Origin: Hydractinia symbiolongicarpus
Lineage: Eukaryota > Cnidaria > Hydrozoa > Anthoathecata > Hydractiniidae
Direction of reading: 5' to 3'
Length of the DNA stretch: 64,000 nt
Assembly: GCF_029227915.1 (NCBI RefSeq)
Contig: NC_079884.1
Coordinates: 22,010,001 to 22,074,000, forward strand
The position numbers and the translations under genes were made by a program. This document shows positions 6,538-61,492 of this stretch, piece after piece. Each line of letters begins with the position of its first letter. Positions within the stretch are counted from its first letter, which is position 1. The notes beneath the pieces were generated by a model. The model saw only the letters and a list, made by a program, of their open reading frames with translations. It did no database searches and was not told the DNA's origin.

Positions 6538-7470
6538 TTATTTTTGATTACAAAGTCTTAAAGCTCTTTTCCTCAACTTCGAACTTCTTACCAATATAAT
6601 CACTGCGTTAAAAAGTGAATTCAAATAAAGTGTAATGATCACTAGTCTGGTTAAACGAAACATTAAAAATGTTCTCGAGCCGTGGTTAATGAAATTAGAC
6701 AACGCATAAGTGACCAAATGGGGTGTGTTGCAAATTGCAGAACAAAAGAACATCATTGCAATTGTATCAGTTACTTTTCTGTTATTATCAACACTTGTGT
6801 GACGATTGCCATTCATTTTTGCCATCGACCTTCGAACTCGGATAATTAAATAGATTTGAGACACAGCCACTGCAGTAGTTAATATAAGCTCCCCTGCTGT
6901 AATAATGACAGCTGTAATTGGTGCTTTATTTTGATAGTTGATCGCCTCCGACTCTTTTATCAATTTTTTTTCGAGAAAATAATCATGCACGCTAATTGTG
7001 GCACCAATTGCCACACAACAAAATAAACAAAACGGGATGAAATACTTTAAAGCAGGTTTACAAAATCCAGAGTGAAAGTTTGGTTTAATGACTAATGCAC
7101 ACCTGTCTATTGTCATTAAAATCGTCATAACCCAAGAAAATAGATATGGAGAAATGAGACAAGCAGATAAAAACGGTGCAATGGAACATATTTTTTCTTC
7201 AGTGAAACCAGCAAACAAAACAATATTAGCTGGCAATGAGAACAAGCCAACACAAAGGTCTGTCGCAGATATAATCAAAAAATACTTGTCTATTCTTGTA
7301 CATTTCTCTTTTCGTATCGCGCTGATTAAAATAGAGTTAATTGAAAGTATTAAAACCATTACCATAATGTTGATCACCACCATAAAGTAATTAACTTCTC
7401 GACTGAACTTTCCACCTGTTGTAAGGCAGATATATTCATCCGATGTGTTACCAGTAATATTCATTGTCAT
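6538..7470 (-). CDS. Class A (rhodopsin-like) G-protein-coupled receptor
   Basis: Intronless frame of 310 residues with seven hydrophobic segments, usual for short class A receptors. The N-terminus has two N-glycosylation sequons (NIT, NTS). Helix 1 has the conserved Asn (SINSILISAIRK). Helix 2 has the sodium-site Asp (ISATDLCVGLFSLPAN). A Cys before helix 3 (EEKICSIAPF) could pair with an extracellular-loop Cys, although the second loop (ISVHDYFLEKKL) shows none nearby. Helix 3 ends MTIDRCALVIKP, a DRY variant (DRC). Helix 6 has CSAICNTPH in place of CWxP. Helix 7 has NSLFNAVI in place of NPxxY. The ligand is not predictable. Many invertebrates carry large families of such single-exon orphan receptors. 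A second Met two codons in (MTMN) could also initiate. The gene looks intact and sits between transposons. Confidence 0.9.
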   Translation of the reverse strand: MTMNITGNTSDEYICLTTGGKFSREVNYFMVVINIMVMVLILSINSILISAIRKEKCTRIDKYFLIISATDLCVGLFSLPANIVLFAGFTEEKICSIAPFLSACLISPYLFSWVMTILMTIDRCALVIKPNFHSGFCKPALKYFIPFCLFCCVAIGATISVHDYFLEKKLIKESEAINYQNKAPITAVIITAGELILTTAVAVSQIYLIIRVRRSMAKMNGNRHTSVDNNRKVTDTIAMMFFCSAICNTPHLVTYALSNFINHGSRTFLMFRLTRLVIITLYLNSLFNAVIILVRSSKLRKRALRLCNQK

Positions 7471-8005
7471 GACTTTTCAAGTTTAGGCGTTAGCTCTTAA
7501 AAACAGGGTTTCGCTAGTCGCCTCTTGTAGCTAACATCTTTGGCCTTTTTAAAAGATAAATAATTAATTTTTAGTGCTAATTAAATTGGGCAATGTTTTG
7601 TTTTAATTTTTTTTTTATTATTGAACAAAATTTCTTTTTTAGCTTACAATTTTTTTTTCGTTGTTAAAACAAAATAAAAGGCAGCTGCTTCCTTTAATTT
7701 TTTGGGCACACAAAATAATTAATTTATGTCACAATTTTTCTTTCTTTCTAAATTTGATTCAAATAATAGAAACTCTTGTAAAAAAATTGGTTCGCATCTT
7801 ATGCATCGGAGAGCGGGTGGTTAGTGAAAATATCGACTATTTTTTTAAAAAAATTACAAAAAATACTTTTATAACTTTTTAAGTTCATAATTCAGTCTAA
7901 TTCAGCTATTTTTCAGATCTATTTTTTTTTGCCTCATATATAATATGTTCAACTAATTTTATCCTTTTTTATATTCTGAAATGTTTTATGACGTCATTGT
8001 AAACC
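7471..8005. other. Upstream region of the GPCR gene
   Basis: Very AT-rich, no coding region supported. It should contain the GPCR promoter on the minus strand, but I see no site I can name with confidence. Confidence 0.35.
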
Positions 8006-11646: not shown

Positions 11647-14600
11647 ATGAAACATGTATGGGTTTGGATCTTGCTGCAATGTTTTAAAGTTGATAATGCA
11701 CTAATCGTACCCCTCGATCCAGGTAATGCTTTTTAGAAAAGGATAGTTCAGATAAATTATTTCATTATGATGTAATGTATTCCGGTGAATATTTTTGTAT
11801 AGAGTCACAACAAGCAGTTGGTCTGGAGAGTGGAAAGATACCAGACCGGCAAATATATGCTAACAAAAACGTTGGCGTTTATAAAGCACGACATTGTCGT
11901 TTAAACAATGAGTCTGCATGGTGTATTGAGAATGACCCAAAAGCATTAGATGAATACTTTTCTGATCAACTTGCTATAAGTGTTGATTTTATATACAACC
12001 TTCAGATAAATGCTATAGCCTTGCAAGGCTATAAAACTTCTAGTTATGGTAATAATATTATAATTCGCTATTTTCATGGAGGATCAATGCAATATTACTC
12101 GGAGAATGGTTTAAAGGTAACTAACAAAACTCAGCCAGTATTTATGATAAAAATGTTTTAAAAAGTTATCCTTAAATTTTAATATAAGAACGATTTATAC
12201 TAAAATCGACTTCTTCTGCAGCAGTTCCAGAACCGTGGCGTTTAGCGACACCTTTAGTAACCTATTTTACCATTGGCTTAATGTATTATCAGTTATTTAA
12301 GGCCAAACCTTAATCGGTTATGTGCAAAACTTGATAAATACATACCTGATAACAATTATCGTTTTGAAAATAGTTATTTTATCTTTATTTCAATACTCTT
12401 TTTACTTATTATTTTAGACGATTACTGTGAAAAACTTTAAAGGTGATAACTATGAATATCGTGTACTAAACCCACCAATACATGCATCAAAATTACTTGT
12501 ACAGCTACCAACCGGAGTGAATACGAAATGTCTACGCATGGAAATGTATGGTAACTTACCTGGTAAAATGCCTCAACGCAAAGAGTTTAACGGTAAGAAT
12601 GATAACAGTTAGTACATGCTTGTAAGTTTTGCACAAAACTATGCCGTTGTCAAAGCGTAAAATAAAGCAAAAACATTGGATCGATAAAGAAAGTAATTTT
12701 ATGTGGACTCACAAATTACATAGGAACAAGTTTTGGGTTAGCCTGTCAATTTGGTGGAAGGATTTGGGAAAATACTCAAAACCATGTAACACCAGCATTT
12801 TCATATTCTACTGTAGGAATGTTTCATCCATAATAGGCTTCCAATCATCAAGGACGATTATAAACAATGCATTTTACTAGAGAATAAAACTGAAAACCAC
12901 TATGGTAAGGAAAACAAATCGAAAATGTAGATATTATAATATCTTATAGTCTTTATTACTATCTTACTGTGAGCCAATTTAAAAATTGGGCGTTTTCAAA
13001 TTAAAAGAACCGTTATAATCTCTCCCCAAAACATAACGTTGTCAAACCTCATTACGATACGTGTTAATTCTTTGTAACTTACCGATGCCATCAGAATTAT
13101 AATTATACTAATTAATTTTTCCTGCCTTACGGGCTACACTCGTGTCAAATTGCCCTGTCAGAATTTATGTTTTTATTTAGAATGCACTAAAACGAACCTT
13201 GGTCTTGTAACAAAAGATTTGGGGAAAACATTCTTTACGCAGACCCGATTTCTTGCACAGCAAATCTCATTAAACGCAGAACATTTACCAACCAATATGC
13301 CATACGCGTGGTGTTTAAAAAAAGATAATATATCATCGCCTTACGAAGACTGGGCTTCTGTCAACCTTAAAGCTAAACATTTGATATATGGTCTTCATGT
13401 TGATGGTTTTAGAGATTTTTTTAAACCAAGTGACAAATATCTCCCAACATTCTTTAAGCTCCAGTACAGTTTAGATTCTAAGCTTTGGGCAGATTATGAA
13501 GGAGGAAAGGTATAGATACTACCTGCTAATTAAACTCCTGTTACAGTGGGTGAAATAAATTTATGTAATTTTTACTTTTTCCTGCAGGAATTACAAAGTT
13601 TGAACTACAGTTTATTCAGTGGAAAGAAATTACTGTTTAAAGTTCCGCTTCTGGGACAATATGTTCGAATCAGAATGAAAATTGAAAGACGTACCATAAC
13701 ATGCATTAAACTTCAAGTGTATGGTTGTCCAGCTATAAAGGCACCAGGTATCACATAATCCTAATGTAATAACACTCTATTAGTTATTGTCTTGATTGGT
13801 TAAAAAAATGAATAATAAATTATTTCAGGGTTAAGTCAAGGGTTAGGGTTAGATATACATATACATGTATGATACAATAGATTTTGTTTCTCAATTAGTT
13901 TGAGAGGAAAAATGTAATAAAGAAATTGTTACCATATTACTAGGAAATTGTGACTCGCGTTTGGTATTTCTTTTACCTAGGCGCAAGCCCCTCCAAACAG
14001 GCAAAGAATTAAGTGATTCTGCGTAGAGGAAATTTAACCGCAAATTTAAACCGTGTTTTTTTTCAATGGCCACCGATTCAACGAAAAACAGCTGAAGAAA
14101 GTCTGAAATAGAATTATAAATTACGAAGGCTTGCTAAAAAAAGATTTGTTTCTCACTTTAGAAGGATTAATAATGTGGTTATTTTTCAAACGATAGCTGG
14201 AACACTTCTTTAAAGATGAATACGCCGCAGCAATTATTTAATGGAAATAGTTTTAAGTTTTATATCAGATTTGTCTAGACATTTAAGGAAGAACTCTTTT
14301 CGTAGGCAAAATTTACCAAAAAAAAGTAACGTATTGCTCACAAAATGTTTGATAATAAATACTACGGAAAATTCATTGAATTTTGCATTCTTAGTATGGA
14401 TTATGACGAGGTTGTCCAATCAGGTGAACAAGCTTTTCTGTCTGTATTCATGATAGGATTCCCTCAATTTGATCAAAAGATCCCACCTTTCCTTTTACAG
14501 GTGATTTCTTTATGCTCTCTTAATTTTAAAAAGCGTTAGCTAAAACGGTAACAGTAGCAGCATCTTAAAAACAGACCTATATACACATATTTTTCATCGA

Positions 14601-17600
14601 AATATACATAGTAAAATACTGAATAACATGAAAACGAAGTTTATTATAAACTGAGTTTTAGTTTCCAGCAAAACAAATATGTTTTTTTTACTTGAAAAAA
14701 TATTTGCAAAATTAATATTTTATACAATGTCATTATTAACAACATTTGGTAATAGTATATATCGCTCAGATACTGAGCAGTTTTTATGTTTTTTTTTTTG
14801 CTATTCTTAGCGTTAAATGAGCTATACTAGCTAACTTTGAATTATAATACTTTGAACTATGATACTTTAGCTCAGAAGTTCACACACAGTATGAGCAATC
14901 AAACATTCACATCTGTCCAGTTTTGCATAAAAAAAAGAAGAAAATCTGTTGTTAGCACACCTCTGCCTCGTATATTGCTTAAAATCTTATTCGAACTTTT
15001 AAACCTAGATGTTTGGGAAGTAGAATCTCCAACAGTTATCAAGTACCAAAAAATAACCTTTTTCTTCTAACTTCTTTAATGATCTGTTACACTTAAACCA
15101 TCTTCGACAGCACCCTAGAAGGGCTGGAACATCCTGTTTCTTATATATGAAATATAAAGTGTTTTTTTCCTGTGAATAGCTGCACTGCTTCTTTAAAAAA
15201 AGTGTGTCTTATTTTTCAGCTCGCATCTTCCATTACATGATATATCAAGGTGATTCCAGCTCGACGTACTCTTGGAAAGACACAAAATACCCTCACAATC
15301 CCACACTTAAAGAAAGATTTTTATCTCGTGAAACTGGCCTGCCTTACTGATGGAGAACACTTAAAAACTATAAGTCCATTAACTTCAAACTGTTGGGTTG
15401 GTTGGAATAAAACTTCACGCCCGAAACCATTAGTTGCTCTTACTTTAAGTGCTGTGTCAAGAATTTATGCTGTTAAGCTTTTAACATATGTAAATGAAAG
15501 TATGCATGCTGGCACTATTAAAAGATTTTCTGTGGAAGCTGGTAGATCTGTTCCCATACCGAGACTTGGTTATGTATGTGCTCCTGATTCAATGTACTAT
15601 ATTAGCCCACAAGTGATTGAGTATACAATAGATTTGGGAGGAGTATTGGCGAAGGTGATCAGTATCAAATTTGATTATTCTATGGAGTGGATTTTCTTGC
15701 GACAAGTTTCAATTGTTCAAGGTATGCCATGTTAGCCAGGTCTTAAAAGATATGGTTCACTTGTTTTCCAATGTTTTAACGAAATAACAGTTTGAAATCG
15801 GGTGCACAACCGAGGCTGTTATTTTTTTTGAAACCACCAGACTGAGCACTTGGCACACATAAACTGTATCGCACGTGTGTATAGGCGTAATACCCTTTTC
15901 CAAAAAAAACAACTGTATCACAACTTCGGTTAACATAAAAACACAGGTTAGACTCGTTGTTAACACTGGGCGAAGCACTTACTATACACTTTTCCAAAAA
16001 TACTTCATCGCAACTTCAGTAAAACACAGGAAACAACAGTTACCCCGTCCAGCTCAAAATATCATTAAAGCATTTTATTTTGCGAAATAATTTTTCATAA
16101 CAGTATTAAAAGGCGTAGACCTAACTGCATATAGCATGAAAATTAGTAATTACGAATTTTGTTGTAGCCAAACTGAATTTGGGCTATTTTAACTTTATTG
16201 CCAGAGCCACTTTAAAGAATTAGCTAGATAGCCACAATACAATAAAAGAATAATACTGTCCGTCCGTCCGTCCGTCCGACTGTCACGCAAAATGGTAGCT
16301 TAGCTGCGCAGGTAGCGAGACGCACGCAATGCGGTAAAAAAAGGATGGGCGAACCCGTGGATTTTTCTACGGGCTAACGACTAGTACTGATAATAATACT
16401 AATAATAATAATACTGATAATAAAATCTAGATAGGTAAGCATCATTTCCAAACAGATTTTTATTGTGGTTTCCTTTCGTTAATTATTCTTCCATTTCCAT
16501 ATTTTTTAGCATTCTTTCCCCCTACGAACTAGGTTTGTTTTCACCCAGCGAAATTTTAAAAATAGCAGATGTAGCACAAATGCGATTCGTCAATTTAGCA
16601 AAATGTCAATCATCACTACGGTAACAAAGCTGAACCGAATCGCCGAATAGCTAGCTAGATTTTTAGGATGCTCGCTCGAAATCTACGTTCAGAGCAAAAA
16701 TCTTCAAATTGGTGAGTTCAAGATTTTCATGTGGCTAAAAAGCGTTTATTTATTTATTTATCCTTACATGTAAAATCATATAAAAATTAAAGTTAAAGCT
16801 TTTAGTAGACAAAAACAGACTTGGTAACATCGACGCCACAGCTTTTAAAAATTTAAATATTGTTTTAGATTCCTTCGTCCGTAAAAATCGGATTCTGCAG
16901 GGTATTGCCGGAATTTTCCGAAAAAAGCTGCGCGCAACGATTTATAACACGCAGAATACGACTATTATTAAAGACACTAAACGGGACATAGCCGGCTTCG
17001 AAACGACGGGTTAAGCCATCAGTAATGAAAGGTTGAGTGATAGGTTGAGCGCTTAAGTTCATACAAGAATGTACTTCCTGTCCAGATGGAGCGCTGTGGC
17101 AATTGCATACAGTATGTCGCAAATCCAGAGAAATGCACACAGTGTTTCAGCGAGAATAAAAGCACAGGTTACAATATGTTGTTGCCCGTCATAGCAAAAA
17201 CAGTTGAATGGCATTTTTTATTTTTTTATTATGCGAAATAAGATCCCGTGGAAGTTTAAAACGAATCGGAGCACCAAACTGAGTGCTTAGTACAGGTAAA
17301 CTGTTTCGGACACGTGTATAGGCGTGATACCCTTTTAATAAAAAAAAAAAAATGCAAAGGAAAAAGACCATCGTTATTCCATCCAGCTAAAAAAATCAGT
17401 CAGCTATTTTATTTTGCGAAATAAATTGCTTGAAATTTGCAAAAATGATCAGTGCAAATAAAAACACATTTTGTGGTTACAAATTTGCATGTACAAAATG
17501 CTAAACTAAGTTAAATTACAAAACAAAGAAAGGGTACAAGAAAAGGAAGTTTTAAACGTTTCACCGACAAACATATTTAAAGTTCTCTTTTGTTAAATAA

Positions 17601-20600
17601 TACTTCTATACTAAAACTATCCGTACTATCGTCCTCGTCTTGTAGGTACTGCTCGATTAATCTAACATATAAAAGACATAGTTTTATTTTAATAAAAGCA
17701 GGTTCGAAAGTTTCCTCTAAGTTTGGATAAATTATTTAACCAGCTATTTAAGATAAAAAAGGAGGATTAGTTCTTCACCTAAGAAAGTTAAAGTAATGTC
17801 GTTATAAACCTGAGTTTATTTCTTCGTTTTTCCTCTTTAAAGCACAGACCGTTTTTCTGTAAACTTAATGATTCAAAAGAAGCCATCATATAATACAAGC
17901 AAAACTGATAAATTTTGTTAATATTCTTTTATTTCCATCTGCTAACGTGCCAAACCTTTATAACTTTTCTAAGCAGTTTTTACTGTTTCCATTTTTTTTC
18001 CTCTTTTCTTAATTGAACGTCGTGATCGATTTCTAATTTTGAGTTGCACATTTTGCGCGAAAAGTCACTTCAAACCCAGCACGTATATAATATCTTTTTT
18101 AAAATACGTGTTCTGCCTATCTTGTTGCTACGTTTTGTTTTATTTCTCCGATATAGATCTCGCCGCAAAGACACATTTACGTGTGGGAAAAGCTTTTACT
18201 TTAAAAATATATATTTTAAAATACAAAATGGCGAAGAGATTTAATAATCAAAGTAGTGTTTCACGTCAATTACATATAACAATAATGAGTGCATTTTACC
18301 GCCTAATTGGTGCGAAGATAGAGGCTCTAGTCAATTTTTAAGCAAATTTAACATTTTTTCACGCTCTTTAAGAACGCAATAACAACAATTCAAGCAAAGA
18401 AAAAGAAATTCAGCTTCAGCCACATGTCCTCATAACAAATGAAAATGGACAAAGATGGAAAAAAATCACGAAATAAGTCTTAAATGTACATTTAGTGAAC
18501 ATAAAAATAATATTATTATCATTATAACTTGATTTTTTAATTCCAATTAAAGGGCGGGAATAAAACAGACAAAAAAAATTCCACTTACGGAATCTTCTGA
18601 AAGTTATATTATTGTTCTATTCTCATCATAAAATTTGTTCTTGTTAATTTCTTTTAGATGGCGCAGATATTAAAGCGTTTTAACGAAATTGACAACTCTT
18701 TGCCAATCGCCCGTAACGTTTTCCGTGCACGAATTTATAACAAAGACAGTACATCGCTCGAACAATGGAAACTAACTACCCATGACTTTTTTTATCACAA
18801 AATTTTGACCGCGCAAAAAAAATTATACAGTACACATTCGTTAATTCAAATGCCGCGTAATTCGAAAATTCTCCATTTCGAACGAATTTTCTAGTCCCTT
18901 GAGTTTAGTCTAATAAAGTCTTATACTTTATGCTGCCTATTTCGAACGCCGAGCATTTATTGTTTGCTATTATTTTATAATTATTTACCCAGGATAGCCT
19001 TTTCAGTTCTTAATAGAACTGTCATCAATTAGTGCATTTTAAGCTCCCATTTGAGCTACGAAAGGTGCGCAAGCACAACAGCCGCTCAACTAGACAAACG
19101 CCTAAGATATCAATCCTATTTTCATACTAAACGGTGTTCTCAGACCTTCCACACCGGAGTTGAACGCAAGTGCACCAGTCGGTTACCTTTGCCGGTTATT
19201 GCTAATTCGAACAGTTTCTTCGGTCCTTAGGCTAAAAAAGTTCTTTAATTTGAACTGTTGTGCACTTATAAACTGAAAATGCAATGAAATTAAAGACATT
19301 TTTCTATTTTTACATTAATAGTGATAAAATTTCTTCGAACTTTCCAATAAATTTTACATTTCCAGTAAAATTGATTTTACAAGGTATCTAGTTTCCCAGT
19401 TACTTTTTACTTTGCAACAGTTGTAGTCGCCTGTTTAGAGAGAAAATGAAGTTGTTTTTGCAAAACGACCTGTCTTCCCTTTCGCCAAATGTCCAACCAC
19501 TCAAATCGACTCTCTAGAAATTATCCGATTTCTGGCTCTACTCGAACTAACTGTCATCGTAAAAAATCAGCAGAAAACAAAAAGCATTACGTTTTAATAC
19601 ATGATGGCGAATATTCAAAGTCAGAAGAGTTCGTCGAGTGGACTGACCGACGTGAACTTTGGCAAATTGTAGAGTTAATAAAACGGTTCTCCTTATTTTT
19701 AAATAATGGGGGGATGGTTTAATCATGTGCAAATCCAATGAGTATAGTAAAGTACAGTGAAATCGAGCATAGAGTGTGTTAATGAATTAGTCTTTAGAGA
19801 AGAACGCATCTGGAGATGACACACATCAAATGCAAAAAAAACACTATCTTTCGTAAAACATAAGCAAGTTTCTTACAAGAATTGTTTATATGAGCCATTG
19901 TTTAGTGTGCCGCTACAGAGAGGTCAAATGTAGTGGGTAATGTAAATTACAATTGTTAATGCAAATATAAAACTAAATCACTAAATGGAGATGTTGATAT
20001 AAAGAGGCTTCTGCTATAGTGTGTGCTACATGGAAGCTTTCTTATGAGAGTTTGACCTTCATTCCATGTGCATTTAAGACAAGTGTCCGTTGTAAAGAGA
20101 TAGCCACTGTTAGAAGGATTAACCGTTTCTATCCTTCCTTAAATGCCTTTTGTTACTTATACGTACAATTTTAATTTTTATTAACTTTAGAGATTCCGGT
20201 AGCTACGGGGGCGTTAAAATTATCACCGAAATATCTAACATGCAAAACACCGGCTAAGCCAACAAAACTTGGTAAGCCACACTGCGAAACATATACTTAT
20301 TTATTTAAGACTAAGAGAAGTATTTGTTAACCATGTTTGCTGAATTGTTTTTCTTAACTATTTGTGTGTTCAAAAGTAAATTTTGTTACTTTTTCTAACT
20401 TTTATTTAGTTTTAATTTTTTAGAAACTCTTTATAATATATGCCTAAGCGTTGTCATGGCAACTATGTTTTTGTGTTGAGTGAAATTATGTCGGGTTTTT
20501 TTTTCAATGAAAATACATAATTTTGCATTAGTAATTTTTTGTTTGCCATAATGGTGTGACTAAATTCTGAGCATTTAAACAAATTATTCACGAATATCAA

Positions 20601-21335
20601 ATTTGCGGTAACTTAAAAAATAAAATCAGTATTGAAAAGTCTAATAGAATGGTAAATGTCTTAGTTGAAAATTGAATTCATGAATGAGCCGAAATAAACC
20701 CTGCATTCTATTTCCTTATTCACTAATTTCAAAATGACTTTTTTATAGATGATAAAAAGGAGAAATTACCTTATTACTTGCCTTGGTTATCACTCCCTGC
20801 GTTGTTAGTAGTTGCAGTAATAGTAATTTTAATGTTACACCGACGTCGTACCAGACGAGACAAATCAAAATCATCCATAAATGAGCACTATGCAGGACTA
20901 AAAAAATACAAAAATCCTACCTATACAGATTTAAAGGAAAACGAACGCCAGGCTTATCCTGATTTACAAAACCACGAAAGCCCTGAATATGCAGACTTAA
21001 AGAAGAGAGAACGCCAGGATGGTGCCGGTTTATTAGAGCACGACAGCCCTGAATATGCTGATTTAACAATGGACGTTAGCTATAGTTATGTAGATGTTGA
21101 AGGGAAAGAAAGGCATGGTTATGAAGATTTGCAAAAGCACGAAAAGTCGAACTATGTGGATTTACAGAAACACGAAAAGCCGATCTATAAAAATTTGCAA
21201 AACCACGAAAGCTCTGGCTGCGTAAACTTTAGAGAAGACGAAAACTCTGTTCGCAAAGATTTAAACAGACATGAAAGCTCCAACTATGAAGAATTGAATC
21301 ACGATTATGAAGTAGAAATGCCACCAGATGTTTAG
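11647..21335 (+). CDS. Discoidin-domain receptor-like transmembrane protein with tandem ITAM-like tail
   Basis: Eight exons join in phase: 11647-11722, 11803-12116, 12418-12592, 13181-13509, 13588-13747, 15260-15721, 20191-20271, 20749-21335. All have GT..AG borders; the phases run 1,0,1,0,1,1,1, and the total is 2184 nt (727 residues). Residues 1-18 are a signal peptide. Residues about 26-188 are discoidin domain 1 (AVGLESGKIPD, ARHCRLNNESAWC, CLRMEMYGN); its terminal Cys is missing, consistent with the missing first Cys in this splice model. Residues about 189-351 are discoidin domain 2 (ECTKTNLGLV to LQVYGC). Residues about 352-505 resemble the DS-like domain of DDR kinases (LTDG, WVGWN, a YAVKLLTYVNE strand, EWIFLRQVSI end). 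A hydrophobic helix spans 543-562, followed by basic RRRTRR. The tail has no kinase, only YxxL repeats. A role in ligand binding and SH2-dependent signalling is inference. Confidence 0.82.
11723..11802 (+). other. Intron 1 of the discoidin receptor gene; alternative acceptor
   Basis: The donor is CCAG|GTAATG. The acceptor chosen (tatttttgtatag, ending 11802) gives an 80-bp intron in phase. A second in-phase acceptor at 11750-11751 would add 17 residues, including a Cys typical of discoidin starts, but leaves only a 29-bp intron, which is implausibly short. Confidence 0.55.
13748..15259 (+). other. Intron 5 of the discoidin receptor gene
   Basis: About 1.5 kb between phase-1 junctions. No protein domain is recognisable in the open frames near 14241-14539 and 14837-15070. 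Confidence 0.55.
15800..16090. repeat. Dispersed repeat family R1, copy 1
   Basis: Shares 'actgagcacttggcacacat', 'gtgtataggcgtaatacc', 'cttttccaaaaaaa', 'aaaacacagg' and 'accccgtccagct' with copies at about 17180-17430 and 62440-62830. No coding capacity. Confidence 0.75.
16258..16384 (+). mobile_element. Short Helitron-like element with TCCG microsatellite head
   Basis: Starts with (TCCG)n near 16258. It ends with an 8-bp-stem hairpin CCCGTGGATTTTTCTACGGG (16354-16373), then eight bases later CTAG (16381-16384) and T. This matches the 3' end logic of copy A at 2470-2473. It is only about 125 bp, so it is a minimal nonautonomous derivative or a 3' fragment. Confidence 0.6.
16385..16425 (+). 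repeat. AAT/ACT-rich microsatellite
   Basis: Short run of actgataataatact-type units immediately 3' of the Helitron-like end. Confidence 0.7.
17180..17430. repeat. Dispersed repeat family R1, copy 2
   Basis: Carries 'actgagtgcttagtacaggt', 'gtgtataggcgtgatacc' and 'ttattttgcgaaataa', shared with copies 1 and 3. Confidence 0.75.
18658..18894 (+). other. Unassigned 78-residue open frame in intron 6
   Basis: Reads MAQILKRFNEIDNSLPIARN onward and ends in ...HFERIF. Codon use looks less random than that of its neighbours, but I recognise no family, and the frame lies inside the large intron of the receptor gene. It could be a transposon fragment; the nearby 'atttcgaacg' motifs recur at about 18877 and 18940. 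Confidence 0.25.
20778..21335 (+). repeat. 33-bp coding minisatellite: 13 ITAM-spaced YxxL units
   Basis: The final exon encodes an 11-residue period from residue 580 to 715 of the modelled protein. Motif starts fall at 580, 591, 602, 613, 624, 635, 646, 657, 668, 679, 690, 701 and 712. The motifs read YAGL, YTDL, YPDL, YADL, GAGL, YADL, YVDV, YEDL, YVDL, YKNL, CVNF, RKDL, YEEL. Ten of 13 keep the Tyr. Each motif is separated from the next by exactly seven residues, often a charged linker like QKHEKSN or QNHESPE. YxxL-x(6-8)-YxxL is the ITAM consensus, so neighbouring units form overlapping ITAM-like pairs. Confidence 0.9.
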
Positions 21336-21395
21336 ATTACTCTATTTTCTTTAGTCAATTTACGCGACGCAAAAATGAAGTAAGATTTTCTCTAA

Positions 21396-21782
21396 TAGAC
21401 CTTTCCCAAATTTCATAATTACGTCAAACTAAAGAGGTGGATACTAAAAATGATTCTTATCCCTAAGTTTCTTAGCAAAAGGTAGAACAAGTTACCTATT
21501 TTCGTAAATATTTCTGTTCGTTAAGTGTCTCAACTGCGAGCTGAAAGTTTCAGTCAAACCCTTCATATAGCCGAGTTTTTTTTAAGAATAGCTTCGTTTT
21601 CAAAATAATTATTTTCTTTAAATCTAAATAAAATCCAACCAGAATATTATATTGCTCTAAAAACTTCAGCTTTGTCATGATAATTTGATATCTGAATATC
21701 CTTATTTAAAGAGCATTGAACCATTATAAAATTTTGGATGACGTTATAATTATTATAATTTATGAAATTCGATAAGGGTGTA
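21396..21782 (+). mobile_element. MITE 'GACCTTTCCC' family, copy 2
   Basis: Left end TAGACCTTTCCCAAATTTC. Right end degenerate (GAAATTCGATAAGGGTGTA). The interior is collinear with copy 1. It starts 61 bp after the receptor stop codon, so it may lie in the receptor's 3' untranslated region. Confidence 0.85.
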
Positions 21783-24510: not shown

Positions 24511-25975
24511 GATTTGTTTAAGTGAAAAAAATGCACAAAGTCATGTTGAAACCTCAAGTATTTGTTTTTTTCTTTTTTGCATTTTAAGCAGAAAGTGTGG
24601 TATCTTTGAAAAATTCATAGCTTCTGATGACGGCACAGAAAAGTGCTGGCATAAGCAAAAAATTATTCCCGCAATTTTGTACCCTTAATGACTTACTATA
24701 AGTGGCACTAGTTTAATTCAATTTAGGCAAGCCTATCGAAAGTTATTTACAGAAAACGGAACCCTCTCTCCTCCTCCAGCCCGGTCATAATATGATAATA
24801 TGTGTAAAAAAACTAAAAAAAATAGGGTTAAATTATAACTACTTTTTATGAGAATATATTAGTTTCAAAAGGATAAACACATTTTTGTTTTAGTGTTAAT
24901 AATCTTAAAACTATCTTTTAGTCCGTTTGAACCCAGGTTAAGCGTACAGTTGATAATAATTGACATACGAAAAATTGAAACTTAATATTACTTGAATTGT
25001 TGTAAAAGCAGTAGTGTAAGAAACACTTCCGGTGGACCCCAAGCAGGTTGTAAGTGCCGGTGGGACTCTTAAACCTCCCTTTGTGTCATTCGTGAAGAGT
25101 GCGCAATATTTGGCACAAAGTTTTAAGGATTTGTGCACAAGGACTTTAGTTGCAATAACATGTCTTACATGTCATGCAAAAAAACAGGTCACGAAAATTC
25201 ACATTTTAACATCATGTGATACTGTTTTAATGCCTTATTTATGAAGGCTTGTATTGTATAGACTCCAAGAGGCCGGGTTAAAATGAGCTACATCTGATTG
25301 CTGTGAATGCGGAGGTTGATTCCTCTTCATTTTGGATTTATATAGCAGCCAAATATAAGGGTTTTTTATTCCGACTAGGTTTGGACCAACAATGATGTTA
25401 GGAAAGTAAATCTAACATATACAATAAGTGATGTCACCACTACATTCGTTGTGCGTATCGTTAATTGTATCAAATTTGAAAATCGGTTACACGTACAGTA
25501 GATTTTATTTGTTGGAATATAATCTACTATGTTTCATTGTTATAAAAAAATCATTCTTCATCACAAATTTCAATAACAGACCTGATTTCAAAAAAGAAGA
25601 AAGAAAAAAGGCGTCCTTCAGCAGGTTACAAAATATCTTAAATTTGTGTGGACTTAATGTCCCTGTGGGTTGACTCTTTTCTTGATAACTTCTAATTTTT
25701 ATGCTCAATATATCTATTTAAAAGATGTGGTTATAAAGAGCCAAATGATTGGTGGATACAAAGCATCCATTTACCTATTTTGTTTCTTTCTTGTTGATTC
25801 TATTATTTACGACCTTGTTGCATGGTGAAATGAAATTTGAATTGGACAAACTTTATTCATGCATTATTCATCAGAAGGGAGTAAAAATTTTCAAACTTAT
25901 AAAATTCTACAGAAAATTCTTCTGATAACAAGTTTGGGTAGATATAACTTGTGTCAACAAAGGTTTTATACCAAC
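24511..25975. other. Gene-free spacer with small repeat ends
   Basis: No supported gene. An 'aatagggttaa' end signature near 24825, like that of the piggyBac-type MITE, suggests a decayed copy. Confidence 0.35.
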
Positions 25976-26302
25976 ATGCTTTTACTTCGCTATTTTTATT
26001 TATTGTTTGCATGTTTTCATGTATCAACAAGTCATCTGTTGAGACAAAAAAGAGCTAGATCAGCAGTATTTCATAAGGTGTTTCAATACAAGGATACGAA
26101 ATTAAATATCGCGCCACTGGAAACGATACCTGATGTCCTGCTGGAGGAAGATTGTTGTAACCATTGTTTAGCAAAGAACGGATGTGTGTCTGTGAATTAT
26201 GAACGTAGTGGATTAAAACGTTGTGAATTACTTGCAGAGGATCGAGATACAAAAAACGAAACAGATTTTGTCAATGAGAGATACTTTTCCTACTACGATA
26301 CC
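25976..26302 (+). CDS. Secreted PAN/apple-domain protein, first exon (partial gene)
   Basis: Starting at the Met at 25976, the product opens with a clear signal peptide (MLLLRYFYLLFACFHVSTS). A PAN/apple-type domain follows, with the patterned cysteines EEDCCNHCLAKNGC, SVNYE and CELL. The exon closes at 26302 with a good donor (ACC|GTAAGG, phase 0); reading through meets a stop five codons later. PAN domains bind proteins or carbohydrates and are common in extracellular cnidarian proteins. No phase-0 acceptor exon could be identified downstream; the next supported exon (30923) has a phase-1 acceptor. Either a small exon is missing or this exon belongs to a gene broken by transposon insertion. 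The frame stays open upstream to 25859, so an earlier start is possible. Confidence 0.7.
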
Positions 26303-26408
26303 GTAAGGCATCTTTAGTTTTTATACTCCTTGATTGAAATGCTACTAAGAATTGCAATAATACTATCTTCGATCTTCTTAGCGGCGTATTATAAATTACG
26401 CTTTACGT

Positions 26409-26475: not shown

Positions 26476-27970
26476 CTTATGTCATACCTAAATGACTTAC
26501 CTTACCTGGACATCTGCAGAAAAATTTAATATTTTAATCTGAAAAAAATAGAAAATTAAAATATTCTTGAAAATTTTACAACTAGATTTCATTTAGCATT
26601 TCGTAGTAGTAGCTTAAGTAGCCTACATTCGACTCTTTTCGCGTTCACACCCCACAGTTATAAAAAGAGAATGTTGGCGTATTTTATCGCAGGTCTTTAC
26701 CCGACATTGTGCAGGGAAGGATACGAAAGTTGCAATAACATACACAAAGAGAGTATTGTAATAAAGTATAAAAATATTTAACCTCCTTCTCAGGACGAGT
26801 TTGGGAAATATTTTAATAGTTTTCTAACTACCTTGATAAATTCGTTAAAAGACTAAAAATTGGAGAAAATCTATTTTTATCGATTTAACAAAGTTGATTT
26901 GTGTACATGCAAATTAAATTATATAAATCCGTAAATTATCGTTGCCGTGACTAGAACCTTGTCATCTATTTTTAATGGAACATTGAGGGGAAAATATGAA
27001 AGTGGAAAATATGAAAAGTGAAAATCAAACAGTTAGTTAGTTAGTTACCTTAGCAAAAAACAAAACAAACTTATTTATTAAAATAAGTAGCTATGTATGC
27101 GATTCAAAAAGATTCTTCATTTCATTAATCAATGATGAATATTAATGACCATTTTATCTTTTCTTCAGCAACTTTTTATTTTAGCCAACAAAAACGTTCG
27201 CCTCACTGTTCGTAGCCAATTTTAAGCAAAAAGCAAAACAATTATTTAACATAGGTTGAAAATGCGACCTTTTTTCTGCCTTAAATATGCAAAATAATTC
27301 TGAATAACTGCATAGTTAAACTTTGGCGTTATTTAATGTCACAATCGAGTCAGATGTGTCAAGTTATTTGATGTAAGCATAGCCAGAAGAACCAGCATAA
27401 TTTTTCTTACCACCATGAAATCGCAATAGTTAAGGTGGAACCCCTTAAATTATGCTGGGTTTCAAACGATTTTTCTGCCGTCAGAATTCTGACTGCGCTT
27501 TCTGATTGGTTAATTCTGTTGTTCTTTGTTCACGTGGTCAATATCGGAAAATCTTTTGTTTTAAGCGACAATGGCTTTGCTCACCTGAATATAAGTAATT
27601 CTTGTATTATTTAACAGGATAACATGTGACCACACCGGCTTTGTGCTCATTGGTTGATTGTAATTCCGGGTTTGCTGTCAGGCGGAATTGAATTTTAGGG
27701 GTACTAGTCGGTGGCCCGTGAAAAAATTCACGGATTCGCCTGTTCTTTTTATACCGCACTGCGGTATAAAAAAAGTGTCTCACTACTTGCAGTACCATTT
27801 TACATTTAAGCTTTCGTTTGAGAGAAACAAAATTTGATATCCTTGATAAAAGCTTAGTTAACGAGGCTAATATAAGCATATAAATGGCTAAACTTTTTAA
27901 CTGAAAAAAAGATATTTCAAGAAGGCAAAGAAAAAAAAGTTGCTCAGAAAACTTTCTACGAGTGTTGTGA
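26476..27970. other. Gene-free stretch before the LINE
   Basis: No supported gene. A (TTAG)n run lies near 27030. The minus-strand frame 27607-28017 is noncoding in appearance and overlaps the LINE start. Confidence 0.35.
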
Positions 27971-27974
27971 ATCT

Positions 27975-29250
27975 GTGACATGTTGTGAATATGTGAACCT
28001 ACTGCCCTGTTTCTCAAAATTACTTGAACGGATCATGTACAATAGATTAGATAAATTTCTTTTAGAGCATAACATTTTATATGAAAAACAGTTTGGATTT
28101 CAACACGCACATGCCACTGAACATGCAATTGTCCAACTTGTTGACCAAATGCTCCAGTCATTTAATGAAAATAAATACACAATAGGTGTATTCATAGAAT
28201 TATTAAAAGCCTTTGACACCGTAGATCACGAAATTCTAATAAAAAAATTCAAATCTTGAAGGTATCAGAAACATATCATTTGGTTTCGTAGTTATCTCTC
28301 TCAAAGAAAACAGTTTATAAGCTATGAAAAAGGTAAAACTGACTATGAACATATACTTTGTGGAGTACCTCAAGGCTCGATATTAGGCTCACTTTTATTT
28401 TTAATATACGTAAACGATTTGAAACGAGCTACAAAATTGCTGGATCCAATAATGTTTGCAGATGACACGAATTTATTTTACTTTCATAGCAACATAAAGG
28501 ATTTGTTCGATTCTGTAAATACGGAAGTTATCGATATACATGAGCGGTTCCGTGCAAACAAATTGTCTTTAAGTATAAAAAAATCGAGATAACCTTTTTT
28601 CACAAATTTAGTAGAAGGGATCACATTCCTTTAAAACTACCAAAATTAGCAATAAACAATATAGAAATTGAAAGTGAAACAGAAATTAAGTTTCTTGGAG
28701 TAATCCTAGATCAAAATCTCGAAAATTATTGATATTCTTTGTAGAGCTAAATCTATTTTAAACCAGATGTGTTTAAAAAACATATAATTCTCACTAATTC
28801 ACTCGTACATAAACTATGCAAACATTGCATGGGCAAGTACACACAGGACCAAATTAAAACCAATTTTGAGCAAACAAAAACAAGCAACTAGGATAATTTA
28901 CTACCAGGATCATGGCACTCACTCAAGGCATTTTATGAAAGATTTAAAGGCGCTTAACATTTATCAAATAAATATCTATCAATACTTAATCTTCATGTTT
29001 AAAGTTAAAAATAAGTTAGCACCACAAACATTCCACAATAGTTTTAATTTAATAAATCACAATTTTCCGACTAGATTTCGTGAAAATAATCTAAGGCAGC
29101 CAAAAATTGTTAAGCAGCGAACTAGTTTTGCTACATCTAAAAGACGACCACGTCTATGGAACAATTTTTTTAGATAGAGATTTAAAAAAGTTAACACCAT
29201 TATGTGTTTTTAATCAGTGTGTGAAAAATTTTATTGCGAAATTTGAAAAC
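27975..29250 (+). pseudogene. LINE reverse transcriptase relic (FADD box)
   Basis: Read through at least two frameshifts, the region follows non-LTR reverse-transcriptase order. LLPCFSKLLERIMYNRL leads to QFGFQHAHATEHAI, then an AFDTVDHE segment (first catalytic Asp). GVPQGSILGSLLFLIYVNDL follows, then MFADDTNLF at about 28452-28480 (catalytic FADD), and a C-terminal tail ending near 29250. Stops and frame changes occur near 28255 and 28590, and a deletion near 28720. No endonuclease domain is visible upstream, so it is a 5'-truncated dead copy, as LINEs often are. The clade looks CR1/Jockey-like, but that needs a tree. Confidence 0.85.
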
Positions 29251-56740: not shown

Positions 56741-57125
56741 CGTTTCTTTCCGGAATTTCATAAATTATAATAATTATGACGTCATCCAAAATTTCATAAT
56801 GGTTCTACGCTCTTTAAATAAGGATATTTAGATAGAATATTAAATTATCATGACAAAACTGAAGTTTTTAAAGCAATGTATTATTCTAGTTGGATTTTAT
56901 ATATATAATTATTTATATATAATTATTTTGAAAACGAGGCTATTCTTAGAAAGCTTGTCTATATGAAGGGTTTGACCGTAACTTTCAGCTCGCAGTTGAA
57001 GCACTTAAGGAACAGAAATAATTAAGAAATTAAGTAATTTGTTCTACCTTTTGATAAGGAACTTATTTTTAGTATCGACCTCTTTAATTAAGTTTGGCAT
57101 AATTAGGAAGTTCGGAAAAGGTCTA
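56741..57125 (-). mobile_element. MITE 'GACCTTTCCC' family, copy 3 (inverted)
   Basis: The reverse complement is collinear with copies 1 and 2: the 5' terminus is at 57125 (TAGACCTTTTCCGAACTTC on the minus strand) and a degenerate 3' terminus lies at about 56741. It lies 183 bp from the left end of the ISL2EU-type transposon. Confidence 0.82.
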
Positions 57126-57308
57126 TTAGCTAACATTGGAAATTGAGGAAAATGATAACACATGCAACTATATGAAAAGCCCTTGCAGGCTAAAAGATTT
57201 CGGATTCTTGTTCGTGTGTAATTTTGTTCCCTATACCAAGGTCGCCAGTAGCCTGTTTTGTACAGAACCTCTACAATGTTGTTCTGTTGTTTGAAATAAA
57301 TAGGTATA

Positions 57309-57335
57309 GACCTTTTCATAAATTATTGCGCAATA
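57309..57335 (+). repeat. Left terminal inverted repeat of the ISL2EU-type element
   Basis: Pairs with 61825-61851 with about two mismatches over the first 24 bases. Confidence 0.9.
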
Positions 57336-57389
57336 GTATGCCTCGTATTGAAAACGAGACAAGCGGTGCTAAACTTTTTTGTAAACAAA

Positions 57390-58913
57390 ATGTCGGAGGG
57401 GAATACGAAGAAAAAACATAAAAGATCTCAAGGAAAGCAATGTGCTGCCTGGGGATGCAATAATCGTAGCCTGGTTGAATTTGAAAATGAATTAATATCT
57501 TCAACCATAAGTTTTTTTAAATTTCCGAAAGATTCAGGAACAAGGAAAGTGTGGTGCAGCCGAATTAAACGTATTGATGGACAAGACAACTTTAGAGTAA
57601 CCAGCCATACTGTGCTGTGCGAAAAACACTTTGCAAAAAGTGATATAATAAAAGCCCCTGGAGGGACACGCCGCAGATTGAGAGATGGAGCCAAACCTAC
57701 ACTATTTGAAAATGTGGAGGATTTTAGCAAAAGAAAAGCTCCTGTTAACAGACCATCTCCTCGAAAAAAATTTAGAGAAACATCCACTCTAATTCCTGAT
57801 GAGACTGATATAGGGGATGATTCCACTGAATTTGTAGCTGAGCCAGACTTTATTATGAGGGAGGAACCAGACGCAATTTTTTTGTCAAAAGAAGTTGAAA
57901 AGCTTACAGAAGAAAAAAAGAGTTTGTGTAAAGAGATAGAAATGTTGAAACACAAACTCATGGAAAAAATTTCTACAGTTAAAATAAAATTTGTCGAAAA
58001 TGTTTTGTCATCTGATGCATCATGTAAACATTACACTGGCATACCAAACATCGAAGTGTTTAAAGAATTATTAATTTTTTTAAACCCAGGACAAAATGGA
58101 GAAAATGTTATTCTTTACAATAATCAAGATGTCAAAGGTTTTAGTGATAGAGGTAGACCACGTACGCTGTCCCCTCTTGAAAGTTTTTTATTGACCCTTG
58201 TTAGAATGCGAAGAAACTTTGATGTTTGCCATTTATCATATTTGTTTGAAGTGTCTGAAGGTACTGTAACAAATACTTTTCAAACGTGGGTAAATTATAT
58301 GTATGTTAAGCTCGGAACAATATGCATTTGGCCTTCCCGCAGTCAAGTTCAAGAAAATATGCCAGCTAGTATGAAAGAAAGATTTGCAAACGTACGATGC
58401 ATTATAGATTGTGTAGAGTTTAAAATTGCAGTGCCTTCATCTTTATATTTACACAAAATGATGTACTCAGAATACAAAAGTCACACCACCGTTAAAGTAC
58501 TTGTTGGCATTGCTCCTGGTGGAGGTTTCACATTTATATCGAGTGCCTACCCCGGTAGCATCTCAGATAAAGATATTGTTGTCAAAAGTGGTTTATTATT
58601 TCCAGAACTTTGGCAGGCAGGAGATGCTATTATGGCTGATCGAGGTTTTTTGATAGAGGACTATGTAAAACCTCTTGGTGTGGAATTAATTATGCCATCA
58701 TTTTTGAAAGGACGCGAGCAATTTTCAGAGTCTGAAGTAGTCAAAAGTCAACAAATAGCATCAGAAAGAATTCATGTGGAAAGAATGATTCAACGACTCA
58801 AATGTTTTCGAATATTCGATCGAGTTATTCCAGTAAACATGTTGAACTCCCTGAATCAAATTATTTCGGTATGTGGTATTCTCACAAATTTTCAAGACCC
58901 TATTTTAAAGTAA
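57390..58913 (+). CDS. ISL2EU-type transposase: THAP finger, coiled coil, HTH, DDE nuclease
   Basis: 507 residues from Met57390 (MSEGNTKK). This ATG is preferred because the frame upstream has only a TTG. Residues about 18-95 form a THAP C2CH zinc finger: CAAWGC (C18, C23), a Trp in VWC, CEKHF (C77, H80), and KPTLF in place of the AVPTIF box. Residues about 180-205 are a charged coiled coil (KEVEKLTEEKKSLCKEIE). Residues about 255-310 are a helix-turn-helix (SPLESFLLTLVRMRR to VSEGTVTNTFQTW). The DDE_Tnp_4 core follows: IIDCVEFKI (first Asp), IMADRGFL (second Asp), and ERIHVERMIQRLK (Glu). All three acidic residues and the finger ligands are present and the frame is unbroken, so it may be functional. 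THAP domains bind transposon ends in other families. Confidence 0.93.
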   Translation: MSEGNTKKKHKRSQGKQCAAWGCNNRSLVEFENELISSTISFFKFPKDSGTRKVWCSRIKRIDGQDNFRVTSHTVLCEKHFAKSDIIKAPGGTRRRLRDGAKPTLFENVEDFSKRKAPVNRPSPRKKFRETSTLIPDETDIGDDSTEFVAEPDFIMREEPDAIFLSKEVEKLTEEKKSLCKEIEMLKHKLMEKISTVKIKFVENVLSSDASCKHYTGIPNIEVFKELLIFLNPGQNGENVILYNNQDVKGFSDRGRPRTLSPLESFLLTLVRMRRNFDVCHLSYLFEVSEGTVTNTFQTWVNYMYVKLGTICIWPSRSQVQENMPASMKERFANVRCIIDCVEFKIAVPSSLYLHKMMYSEYKSHTTVKVLVGIAPGGGFTFISSAYPGSISDKDIVVKSGLLFPELWQAGDAIMADRGFLIEDYVKPLGVELIMPSFLKGREQFSESEVVKSQQIASERIHVERMIQRLKCFRIFDRVIPVNMLNSLNQIISVCGILTNFQDPILK

Positions 58914-59005: not shown

Positions 59006-61492
59006 TTACATCAATTTGTCCTGATCTTTCTCTATGATTTGTGGTAGCATATATGTAAAGTAAAACCGTAAAATGTTTTTTTGTAGTTCTTGCCAGTATT
59101 TCATGTCAAATGGCACTCTGTCGATTACAAGACCTTTTGAGGTATAAAAAATAAAATCACACCATGTTTGACATGTGATAGCCAATTGCATTTGTATCTG
59201 ATTGTAATATGTGTGATCTTTATTTATTTTGATATTTTCTGTATTGCTGTCATAGAGAATGCAAGGGTTTTTCGCCACAGAACACACTAACTTTGGATCT
59301 ATGTCTCTGTACAAGTGACTGCATTTTACCTCAAGGATGCCATAAAAGCCATTGCAGTTAACTCTTCCATCTGGTGTAGCTCCAAGCACATAATTATTTT
59401 GATCTATTGTTAAACCATTATTTTCCACAACAACTTGGAAACCTGCAATCTTCATGTATCTTTCATAATGTGCAATGGCTATGGGTTCATGATATCGTCC
59501 ATACTCAAATTTAACTTTTAAAAACTGTTGTGGTACACAACCATGCACTATATTTCGTGCTAAAGTTTTTAAGCCTCTTTCTGTTTTGGGTCCACTGTTT
59601 CCAAGTTTGTTGCACAGTGAGGCAGTAAATCTGTTTTCTCTATACTTGAACCAATTTGGATTGTTAGCTTGGTCTCGTGTATTTTTTTCGATGCTGATTG
59701 CATCAGCTGCCTGCTCTTTTAAATTTTGTAGTAACATTAGCTTTTTTTGCTCAACTAAATGAATTTCATTGGCATAATTATCGATAACATTGTCATTTTG
59801 TTTAAAAAAGTGGTCAGTAAAATCTGAAAACAAAACCCGGTCGCCCTTGTTTCCATCCTCCTTAATGTTACAGTAAACTTTAAAATCTGGTGGCATTAAG
59901 GCACATTGGTAGCTCAGAATAGATCCAAATGGCACCGGCCCAAATTGTGTTTGCGTGTATAGCTGAGGATTTGTGTTCATAATTTTTGGTGCATGTGCTT
60001 TGCCATGAAAATTAGTGACGTTGTCAAGCAAAATTCTCAAACTGTCACTACGTGTGTCTCTGTTATGTTCAGATCTTGGCTCGTACAATGAAGATGTAAT
60101 TCCTTTTTTAGAAGCTCCTTCAGTATTTGTGGCATTCCTTTTTGAATCTGGTGATTTAATGGTTAGTTCTGAGACAGGTGGCTTTTGCATATATTCTCTT
60201 GCCTGCGGTACATTCCAAACACATGGCATTGATGTGCATGCTTTAGGCTCTGGAATCATACGCAATTCATCAACTACCCATTTAGCTAACAGTTTCATAA
60301 CGGCATAGCAATGCGAACATGTGCCGGTTTTTCCGGCTGGACATTGACAATGTGCAAATACAACTTCACCATTAATTTTGTTAAGTACAATAAACACCCA
60401 TCTATTCATTTTTTTTAAACTTGCAGCAGCTATACCTTTTATACAAAATATATTATTGTCTTGTTTGACATATATTGTGCTGGTATCAATGTATTTTTCT
60501 TCTACAAATTGTTCACCTCTTGCAAAATGTTTTTTAATTGTTTTAGCCTTTTCAACAAATGTATTGTTTACTTTTGTGTGATAGTCTGTCATTTGCGTAA
60601 CGGTAAAGACAGGTACACCTTGCAAAGACTTTGACCAGCCAGTGAGGTCCAATGGATTTTTCATATCATTTTGTATTGCTGAGGGTGCTTCAGGTAGTGA
60701 GCCTTCTTTCCAAAGCGGTTTTAAAATTTTTCCTAGCTCCATTGCTTTTTTCCTAATCCAAAGCTTATCAGGTGTTGGATCAACAATCTTCTGATTGTTT
60801 TTATTCTCAAAGTAGTTCCATACTCTAAAGTGAAGAAAAATACATTGAATACAAATGTGTTGCTTTTTATGCATACAAAATCTTGAATTTAGGAAAATAT
60901 TTTTTTAGAATATATATTATATATAAATAGCTACATACACATATGATGGTAAAAAAGCATGTAAAATAATTTTCTATGAAAATATTATAAAATCCAAGTT
61001 TATTGAGGTTGCTCTGACTTCTGTTGTGAAATTGTAATTACCAACATTCCACTTTTCTTATGTTTCTAGATTTGTGTTTGCAATATAATAAAGCCATAAT
61101 TCTGTTCAGCTTCTCTCTACAATTTAATATCACTTACCTAACTTGGGCATCTTTTAGTGTGTGAATACCACGTAGAGTGTCTCCTCTAAATACTAACCAC
61201 TGTTTTAAATGTTCCATAGGATATTTTGAAAGCATTGTAACATTTAATTTTACATATGGGTTGTCAATATCATCTTCTGTGAGAGTAATGGCATCCATAT
61301 CTACATAAATTTAAAAAACCTATATATATACATTTTTTATAGTTTTCGTTTTCCTAACAATCACTTTTTTCCATTAAAACGTAAATTTCTCTTGCTAGCT
61401 AGCTTAAAAGTTTAAGGTTACTTACCAACCATGTTGTTTTTGAAATAATCATCAAAATCTGGTATCTCCAACTCGTGTTTTTTAAAATCCAT
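59006..61492 (-). CDS. ISL2EU accessory protein: SAP-like N-terminus, SWIM zinc finger, YqaJ nuclease
   Basis: Three exons on the minus strand (61492-61426, 61300-61138, 60824-59006) join in phases 1 and 2 with GT..AG borders and give 682 residues. Exon 1 starts MDFKKHELEIPDFDDYF. Exon 2 has a SAP-like motif (LKQWLVFRGDTLRGI). Exon 3 has a SWIM finger (FAHCQCPAGKTGTCSHCYAV, CxC...CxH). Its YqaJ-type nuclease core has FTASLCNKLG, FEYGRYHEPIAIAHYE, LGATPDGRV, GILEVKCSH and YYNQIQMQLAITC. These supply the Glu, the Asp and the ExK of the lambda-exonuclease/YqaJ fold. The gene faces the transposase gene tail to tail, 92 bp apart. It probably processes DNA during transposition; the exact role is not established. 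Confidence 0.92.

Follow-up and report, generated by a model that had tools for sequence, protein, structure and literature searches.

Receptor kinases and receptors acting through immunoreceptor tyrosine-based activation motifs (ITAMs) are usually treated as two separate uses of tyrosine phosphorylation. The platelet collagen receptor GPVI/FcR-gamma senses matrix through an ITAM and Syk, its ectodomain being of the Ig type and the ITAM being carried by a separate adaptor chain, and in CD3-zeta and other multi-ITAM chains, which have a short ectodomain, a single disordered tail bears several YxxL pairs. Among the receptor kinases, the vertebrate discoidin domain receptors (DDRs) DDR1 and DDR2 combine one discoidin domain and a DS-like fold with a tyrosine kinase. 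Here, we describe a gene of the hydrozoan Hydractinia symbiolongicarpus (genome of 480.9 Mb in 76 contigs) whose product combines a pair of discoidin domains, a DS-like domain of the DDR type, a single transmembrane helix and a tail of YxxL repeats. The gene lies in C10:22,010,001-22,074,000, and this whole stretch of 64,000 nucleotides is called the window below.

The gene shares the discoidin and DS-like fold with DDR1 and DDR2 but has an extra discoidin domain, appears to lack most of their collagen-pocket residues (W52, D69, R105, E113) and has no kinase. The hydrozoan DDR kinases P0002 (Hydractinia), P0008 (Clytia) and P0009 (Hydra) have two discoidin domains, a DS-like domain and a transmembrane helix as in this receptor gene, and P0002 can also be aligned with it over exons 1-7 and has an intron of equal phase at the point where the two genes diverge. 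In contrast, their juxtamembrane region with YAxP-type motifs and their tyrosine kinase are both missing from the receptor gene. GPVI/FcR-gamma would work in a similar way if the ligand of the receptor were collagen, with no kinship by descent, and CD3-zeta-type chains have discrete motif pairs whereas the tail described here is one continuous 11-residue repeat. In the same animal, candidate Alr genes are reported to carry ITAM and inhibitory (ITIM) motifs, and the genome is reported to encode associated signalling molecules (PMC12065747). Alr proteins belong to the immunoglobulin superfamily, as reported in PMC11999971, and the Ig domain expected of an Alr-family member was not found in a Pfam scan of the 727-aa window model (E≤1). 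Among the titles and abstract openings listed from open-licence PMC literature, none described a discoidin receptor whose tail is ITAM-like; one listed paper, on cnidarian pattern-recognition receptors, mentions Hydractinia and discoidin (PMC8260672).

Kinship with the hydrozoan DDR kinases

The initial annotation had read the gene as eight phase-consistent exons on the + strand. Exon 1 (11647..11722) carries the start codon and, by eye, a signal-peptide-like hydrophobic N-terminus, and the start of P0002 is similar. Exons 2 (11803..12116) and 3 (12418..12592) encode the first part and the end of discoidin domain 1, exons 4 (13181..13509) and 5 (13588..13747) those of discoidin domain 2, and exon 6 (15220..15721) the DS-like domain. 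A pre-membrane linker is encoded by exon 7 (20191..20271), and the terminal exon 8 (20749..21335) encodes the transmembrane helix and a cytoplasmic tail of 164 residues. Two stretches of the window model match the Pfam discoidin family PF00754 (E 2.8e-11), both discoidin domains have profile matches to solved discoidin domains, and the DS-like domain follows them, as expected of a DDR relative. The initial annotation had suggested a structural comparison with DDR2; discoidin 2 and the DS-like domain match DDR1 best (4ag4_A was the top structural match across both). The model of P0001, the NCBI protein from this gene, is reliable only in much of these two domains (mean 52.9 overall, below 50 for residues 436-596). 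The tail is unstructured in this model. The full-length model of P0002 was poor, with a mean predicted local distance difference test score (pLDDT) of 43.8, and was left unused. Sub-cut-off Pfam matches to a fimbrium tip domain (E 0.0048 for the window model, 0.0023 for P0001) and to the EphA2 transmembrane segment (~0.04) were taken as chance.

Seven relatives were taken from a first protein search and eight from a profile search. The nearest kinase, P0002, is a Hydractinia DDR of 1066 aa whose tyrosine kinase domain is recognised by Pfam at E 3.1e-82; it is encoded at C10:22,320,397-22,334,459 on the opposite strand, ~290 kb from the window gene. Using an intact upstream copy of the receptor gene, presented in the section on tandem copies, we observed 16/25, 83/105, 45/58, 93/109, 47/54, 146/167 and 14/27 identical residues for exons 1 to 7 (52-87%), amounting to 430/518 (83%) over exons 1-6. 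Exon 8 gave no real alignment with P0002 (42/195 identical, 27 gapped). Exon 7 is the last exon common to the two genes, and the intron that follows it is of phase 1 in both, as read from the letters. Since the ectodomain can be aligned through exon 7 and this phase-1 intron is common, the whole 3' end was replaced at one intron. A tree of seven ectodomains, in which other branches are long, placed the upstream copy as sister to P0002 (100/100) and separated both from the DDR kinases of Clytia and Hydra. In discoidin 1, the window gene and P0002 have both lost one disulphide pair, the cysteines equivalent to C30-C185 of DDR2 (S and N in both), which the Clytia and Hydra kinases keep. P0008 and P0009 share the layout of P0002, two discoidin domains included. 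The DDR-type ectodomain proposed in the initial annotation is supported. Its two discoidin domains are usual for hydrozoan DDRs and add no novelty, since all three hydrozoan DDR kinases seen have two.

The same annotation had described a tail without a kinase fold joined to this ectodomain, and this was borne out: P0001 ends with the tail, and three DDR kinase regions had no match in the window (E≤1). A DDR kinase further downstream in the window was rejected on the same result. The sole kinase-like match to P0002 in 264 kb (the window with 100 kb added on each side) was 23% identical and on the other strand (C10:22076461-22077291). The proposal that a kinase was swapped for a tyrosine-motif tail also holds in the evolutionary sense, as the sister gene P0002 keeps the kinase in the same genome; the further step proposed there, to an immune-type signalling receptor, is a possibility. 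We consider the anatomy, the kinship and the tail swap well supported; judged by its sequence, the gene is a DDR by descent, as a paralogue, and in having no kinase it is not a receptor tyrosine kinase. One animal thus holds a pair of genes that are 83% identical over exons 1-6 but part at a single intron, beyond which their signalling ends differ. Cnidarian database proteins named 'discoidin domain-containing receptor' may likewise have no kinase.

The closeness of the two genes bears on the main rival to ITAM use, namely that P0002 would phosphorylate the tail in mixed dimers. The receptor would then be a partner or a brake of P0002, acting through mixed dimers, ligand soak-up or docking on P0002-phosphorylated YxxL motifs for DDR signalling, with no immune role. 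The identity of 78-87% in each of exons 2-6, the location of both genes on C10 and the presence of another kinase-less DDR-type protein (P0004) in Hydractinia are in favour of this explanation. However, the transmembrane helices of the receptor and P0002 are not meaningfully alignable, and a plain decoy needs no nine YxxL motifs retained despite decay of the repeat. We regard it as unlikely, although no other rival comes as close.

P0004, its near-twin P0003 and P0010 (an ENA record) have two discoidin domains, a DS-like domain and a transmembrane helix; all three lack a kinase and have short tails, and P0010 carries one YSII motif close to its end. Separately, a second DDR-type kinase gene was found in two copies with equal best scores, at C2:6,877,552-6,881,973 (L033) and C2:12,054,353-12,058,883 (L032), 5.2 Mb apart. 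This pair is possibly an assembly duplicate or a large duplication.

The YxxL-repeat tail

Starting at residue 48 of exon 8, the tail can be divided into 13 units, each 11 residues long (YxDLxxxExxx). Tyr is found at position 1 in 10/13 units, Asp at position 3 in 8/13, Leu at position 4 in 11/13, with three different Leu codons in use, and Glu at position 8 in 9/13. At the other seven positions the commonest residue occurs, as a descriptive count, in only 3-6 of the 13 units. The only array reported by Tandem Repeats Finder was a 33-base one with 2.8 copies. Adjacent units are 36-79% identical in DNA, which gives the repeat an old, decayed look that is less marked in the YxxL core.

The cytoplasmic part contains nine YxxL and two YxxV motifs, and five YxxL pairs are spaced by 11 residues (YxxL-x7-YxxL), which falls within the ITAM definition YxxL/I-x6-8-YxxL/I. 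At the level of sequence, the receptor thus resembles an ITAM receptor, with phosphorylation and binding of tandem-SH2 kinases as predicted properties. None of 20,000 same-residue shuffles reached the motif or the pair count (means of 1.10 YxxL/I and 0.02 x6-8 pairs, maxima of 6 and 3), and an origin of the array by chance was rejected. Among 158 candidate proteins (328-1043 aa) the tail was found in P0001 only, and in the genome it was found at two loci, the two tandem copies of the receptor gene (E≤0.001, seven candidates scored), so that survival of the tail in another gene of the genome was rejected.

The same motifs could be read as a multivalent AP2-binding endocytic signal, in which case the protein would be a scavenger receptor that takes up matrix or glycans. 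Each YxxL also fits the YxxPhi sorting consensus, which is the shape of an endocytic signal, and many copies might speed uptake. Nevertheless, a single YxxPhi usually suffices for uptake, and the spacing of 11 residues together with the acidic residues (Asp in 8/13 and Glu in 9/13 units) better suits ITAM pairs. An endocytic role as the main function of the array is, in our estimation, improbable.

Tandem copies and transcript structure

In the 264 kb, a second copy of the gene was found at C10:21,953,824-21,963,379, 68 kb upstream and in an intact form. The two copies of this tandem duplication extend from 21,912,282 to ~21,973,755 and from 21,977,883 to ~22,041,983 on C10 (~61 and ~64 kb), the second spanning about the first half of the window (1-32000). 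Pieces of at least 400 bases were 91-99% identical, apart from three at the far end that reached 82-87%, and insertions were present.

The upstream copy is open across 740 aa when the exon-6 acceptor equivalent to 15220 is used, which is also the acceptor in P0001 and P0002. By contrast, the window copy carries a 1-base insertion at 15338..15339 (+ strand; CC versus a single C in the intact copy), which produces a frameshift and a stop at 15348-15350. With the normal acceptor its product stops after 394 aa; both discoidin domains are then complete, but only a small piece of the DS-like domain remains and the membrane anchor is missing. The initial annotation had started exon 6 at 15260, and its eight-exon frame is open because two frame changes cancel, which leaves ~27 DS-like residues out of frame. 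The equivalent of the 15260 acceptor is present in the upstream copy but disrupts the frame there (385 aa). The eight-exon reading gives one open frame, with exons 4-8 joined in P0001, but its 15260 start sidesteps the frameshift. The window copy is probably broken and not the working one; the working gene would be the upstream copy, and the 394-aa fragment expected from the window copy when normally spliced would be soluble.

P0001, named by NCBI 'discoidin domain-containing receptor A-like isoform X2', has 596 aa and contains discoidin 2, the DS-like domain, the transmembrane helix and the whole tail. It joins exons 4-8 in one protein model, and beyond the border of exons 3 and 4 its sequence is that of the upstream copy. 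That exon 8 might belong to a separate gene, the outcome that would have undone the initial annotation, was rejected, as this model links it to exons 4-7 and so brings together the ectodomain, membrane and tail exons. Residues 1-15 of P0001 correspond to exon 3 in an alternative frame, followed by an extra, optional exon (12817..12904, + strand). In the main frame, inclusion of this exon stops the protein after 193 aa; this suggests a poison exon or regulated switching, and the NCBI start site within exon 3 may not be used. Exons 1-3 were assigned to the same transcript because of the open frame, P0002 and the upstream copy.

We also weighed whether the two copies are in decay or are artefacts. 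On this view, haplotypes left uncollapsed would account for the duplication, and the joining of exon 8 to the ectodomain exons would be no more than a prediction. The frameshift in the window copy and the occurrence of other equal-score pairs in the assembly (two on C2, two on C1) point in this direction, and a non-coding difference of 1.84% (144/7845 sites) between the copies is compatible with alleles. However, coding sites differ at half that rate (21/2223, 0.94%; 13 residue-changing and 7 silent codons, with non-synonymous and synonymous rates dN 0.0080 and dS 0.0153), the upstream copy is fully open, and the NCBI model connects the tail to the ectodomain. No N was found in the 264 kb containing both copies, and this gapless sequence speaks for a true tandem duplication over an uncollapsed haplotype. 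We give an artefact very little credence.

Proposed signalling and neighbouring features

The collagen pocket of DDR2 is reported to comprise W52, T56, D69, R105, E113 and C73-C177 (PMC2807035). With an uncertain loop alignment, discoidin 1 keeps C73-C177 only, discoidin 2 keeps C73-C177, Arg at 105 and Ser at 56, and equivalents of W52, D69 and E113 were not found in either domain. The kinase-bearing hydrozoan DDRs are hardly better at these positions. Since the human pocket residues are mostly absent, the role of a matrix sensor given in the initial annotation, and collagen binding with it, is no more than a possibility.

We propose that a duplication within the Hydractinia lineage gave rise to two versions of a DDR gene of chromosome C10 and that, in one duplicate, the transmembrane, juxtamembrane and kinase exons would have been swapped at the phase-1 intron after exon 7 for one terminal exon, bringing a transmembrane helix and a disordered YxDL-repeat tail. 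The receptor would be clustered by ligand binding and, because it is without a kinase of its own, would have to borrow one. A trans-acting kinase, of the Src/Syk/Shark type or a DDR kinase in mixed dimers, would phosphorylate neighbouring YxxL-x7-YxxL pairs, and tandem-SH2 proteins would then dock on the tail and relay a graded multivalent signal via several overlapping pairs. Syk/Zap70 homologues are reported from invertebrates having CARD-CC/Bcl10, cnidarians being counted as Bcl10 holders, and Shark is described as a further invertebrate ITAM-linked kinase (PMC5978004). Overall, we assign a probability of about 0.6 to the reading of this gene as a kinase-less DDR duplicate acting as a phosphotyrosine-docking, ITAM-using receptor.

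Several observations weigh against this reading. With the Pfam DS-like model, no match was obtained for the 727-aa window model or for P0002 at the thresholds applied (E≤1 and E≤0.5); P0001 was matched only at E 0.015, with 15.5 bits for a cut-off of 27. P0001, as isoform X2, is without exons 1-2 and without an evident signal peptide, and we infer the RNA evidence behind it. Tyr has been lost in three of the 13 units, every YxxL has the endocytic shape mentioned above, and the codon changes between the copies are too few to show selection.

A wider reading, which we hold tentatively and with somewhat less than even confidence, is that a receptor tyrosine kinase became an ITAM-type receptor in one lineage by one exon replacement. 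A DDR ectodomain would then signal through a borrowed Syk/Src-type kinase by way of as many as 11 YxxL/V motifs in a continuous array, and might do so in tissue-contact or immune responses of Hydractinia. The gene pair allows a direct test of the step from a built-in to a borrowed kinase, in an animal whose self/non-self reactions are known.

In the remainder of the window, a dispersed repeat of ~400 bp, MITE-like (miniature inverted-repeat transposable element) by eye, begins 53 bases past the receptor stop codon (21388..21782, no strand assigned). Its family also includes 2563-2965 and 56746-57129, with 82-87% identity and, by eye, inverted ends. A rhodopsin-type G-protein-coupled receptor frame of 312 aa lies in a single open stretch at 6541-7476 on the - strand (PF00001, E 3.5e-10), and a PAN-domain frame (25841-26314, + strand, E 8.2e-08) is located ~4.5 kb downstream of the receptor gene. 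Frames at 27876-29177 (+ strand) resemble reverse transcriptase fragments of the LINE (long interspersed nuclear element) type, with PF00078 in 28260-28589 and the remainder by eye. Finally, a long open reading frame for a THAP and DDE_Tnp_4 transposase (57300-58910, + strand) adjoins an equally open, long YqaJ-nuclease frame (59009-60904, - strand), and this pair looks like one two-gene DNA transposon.

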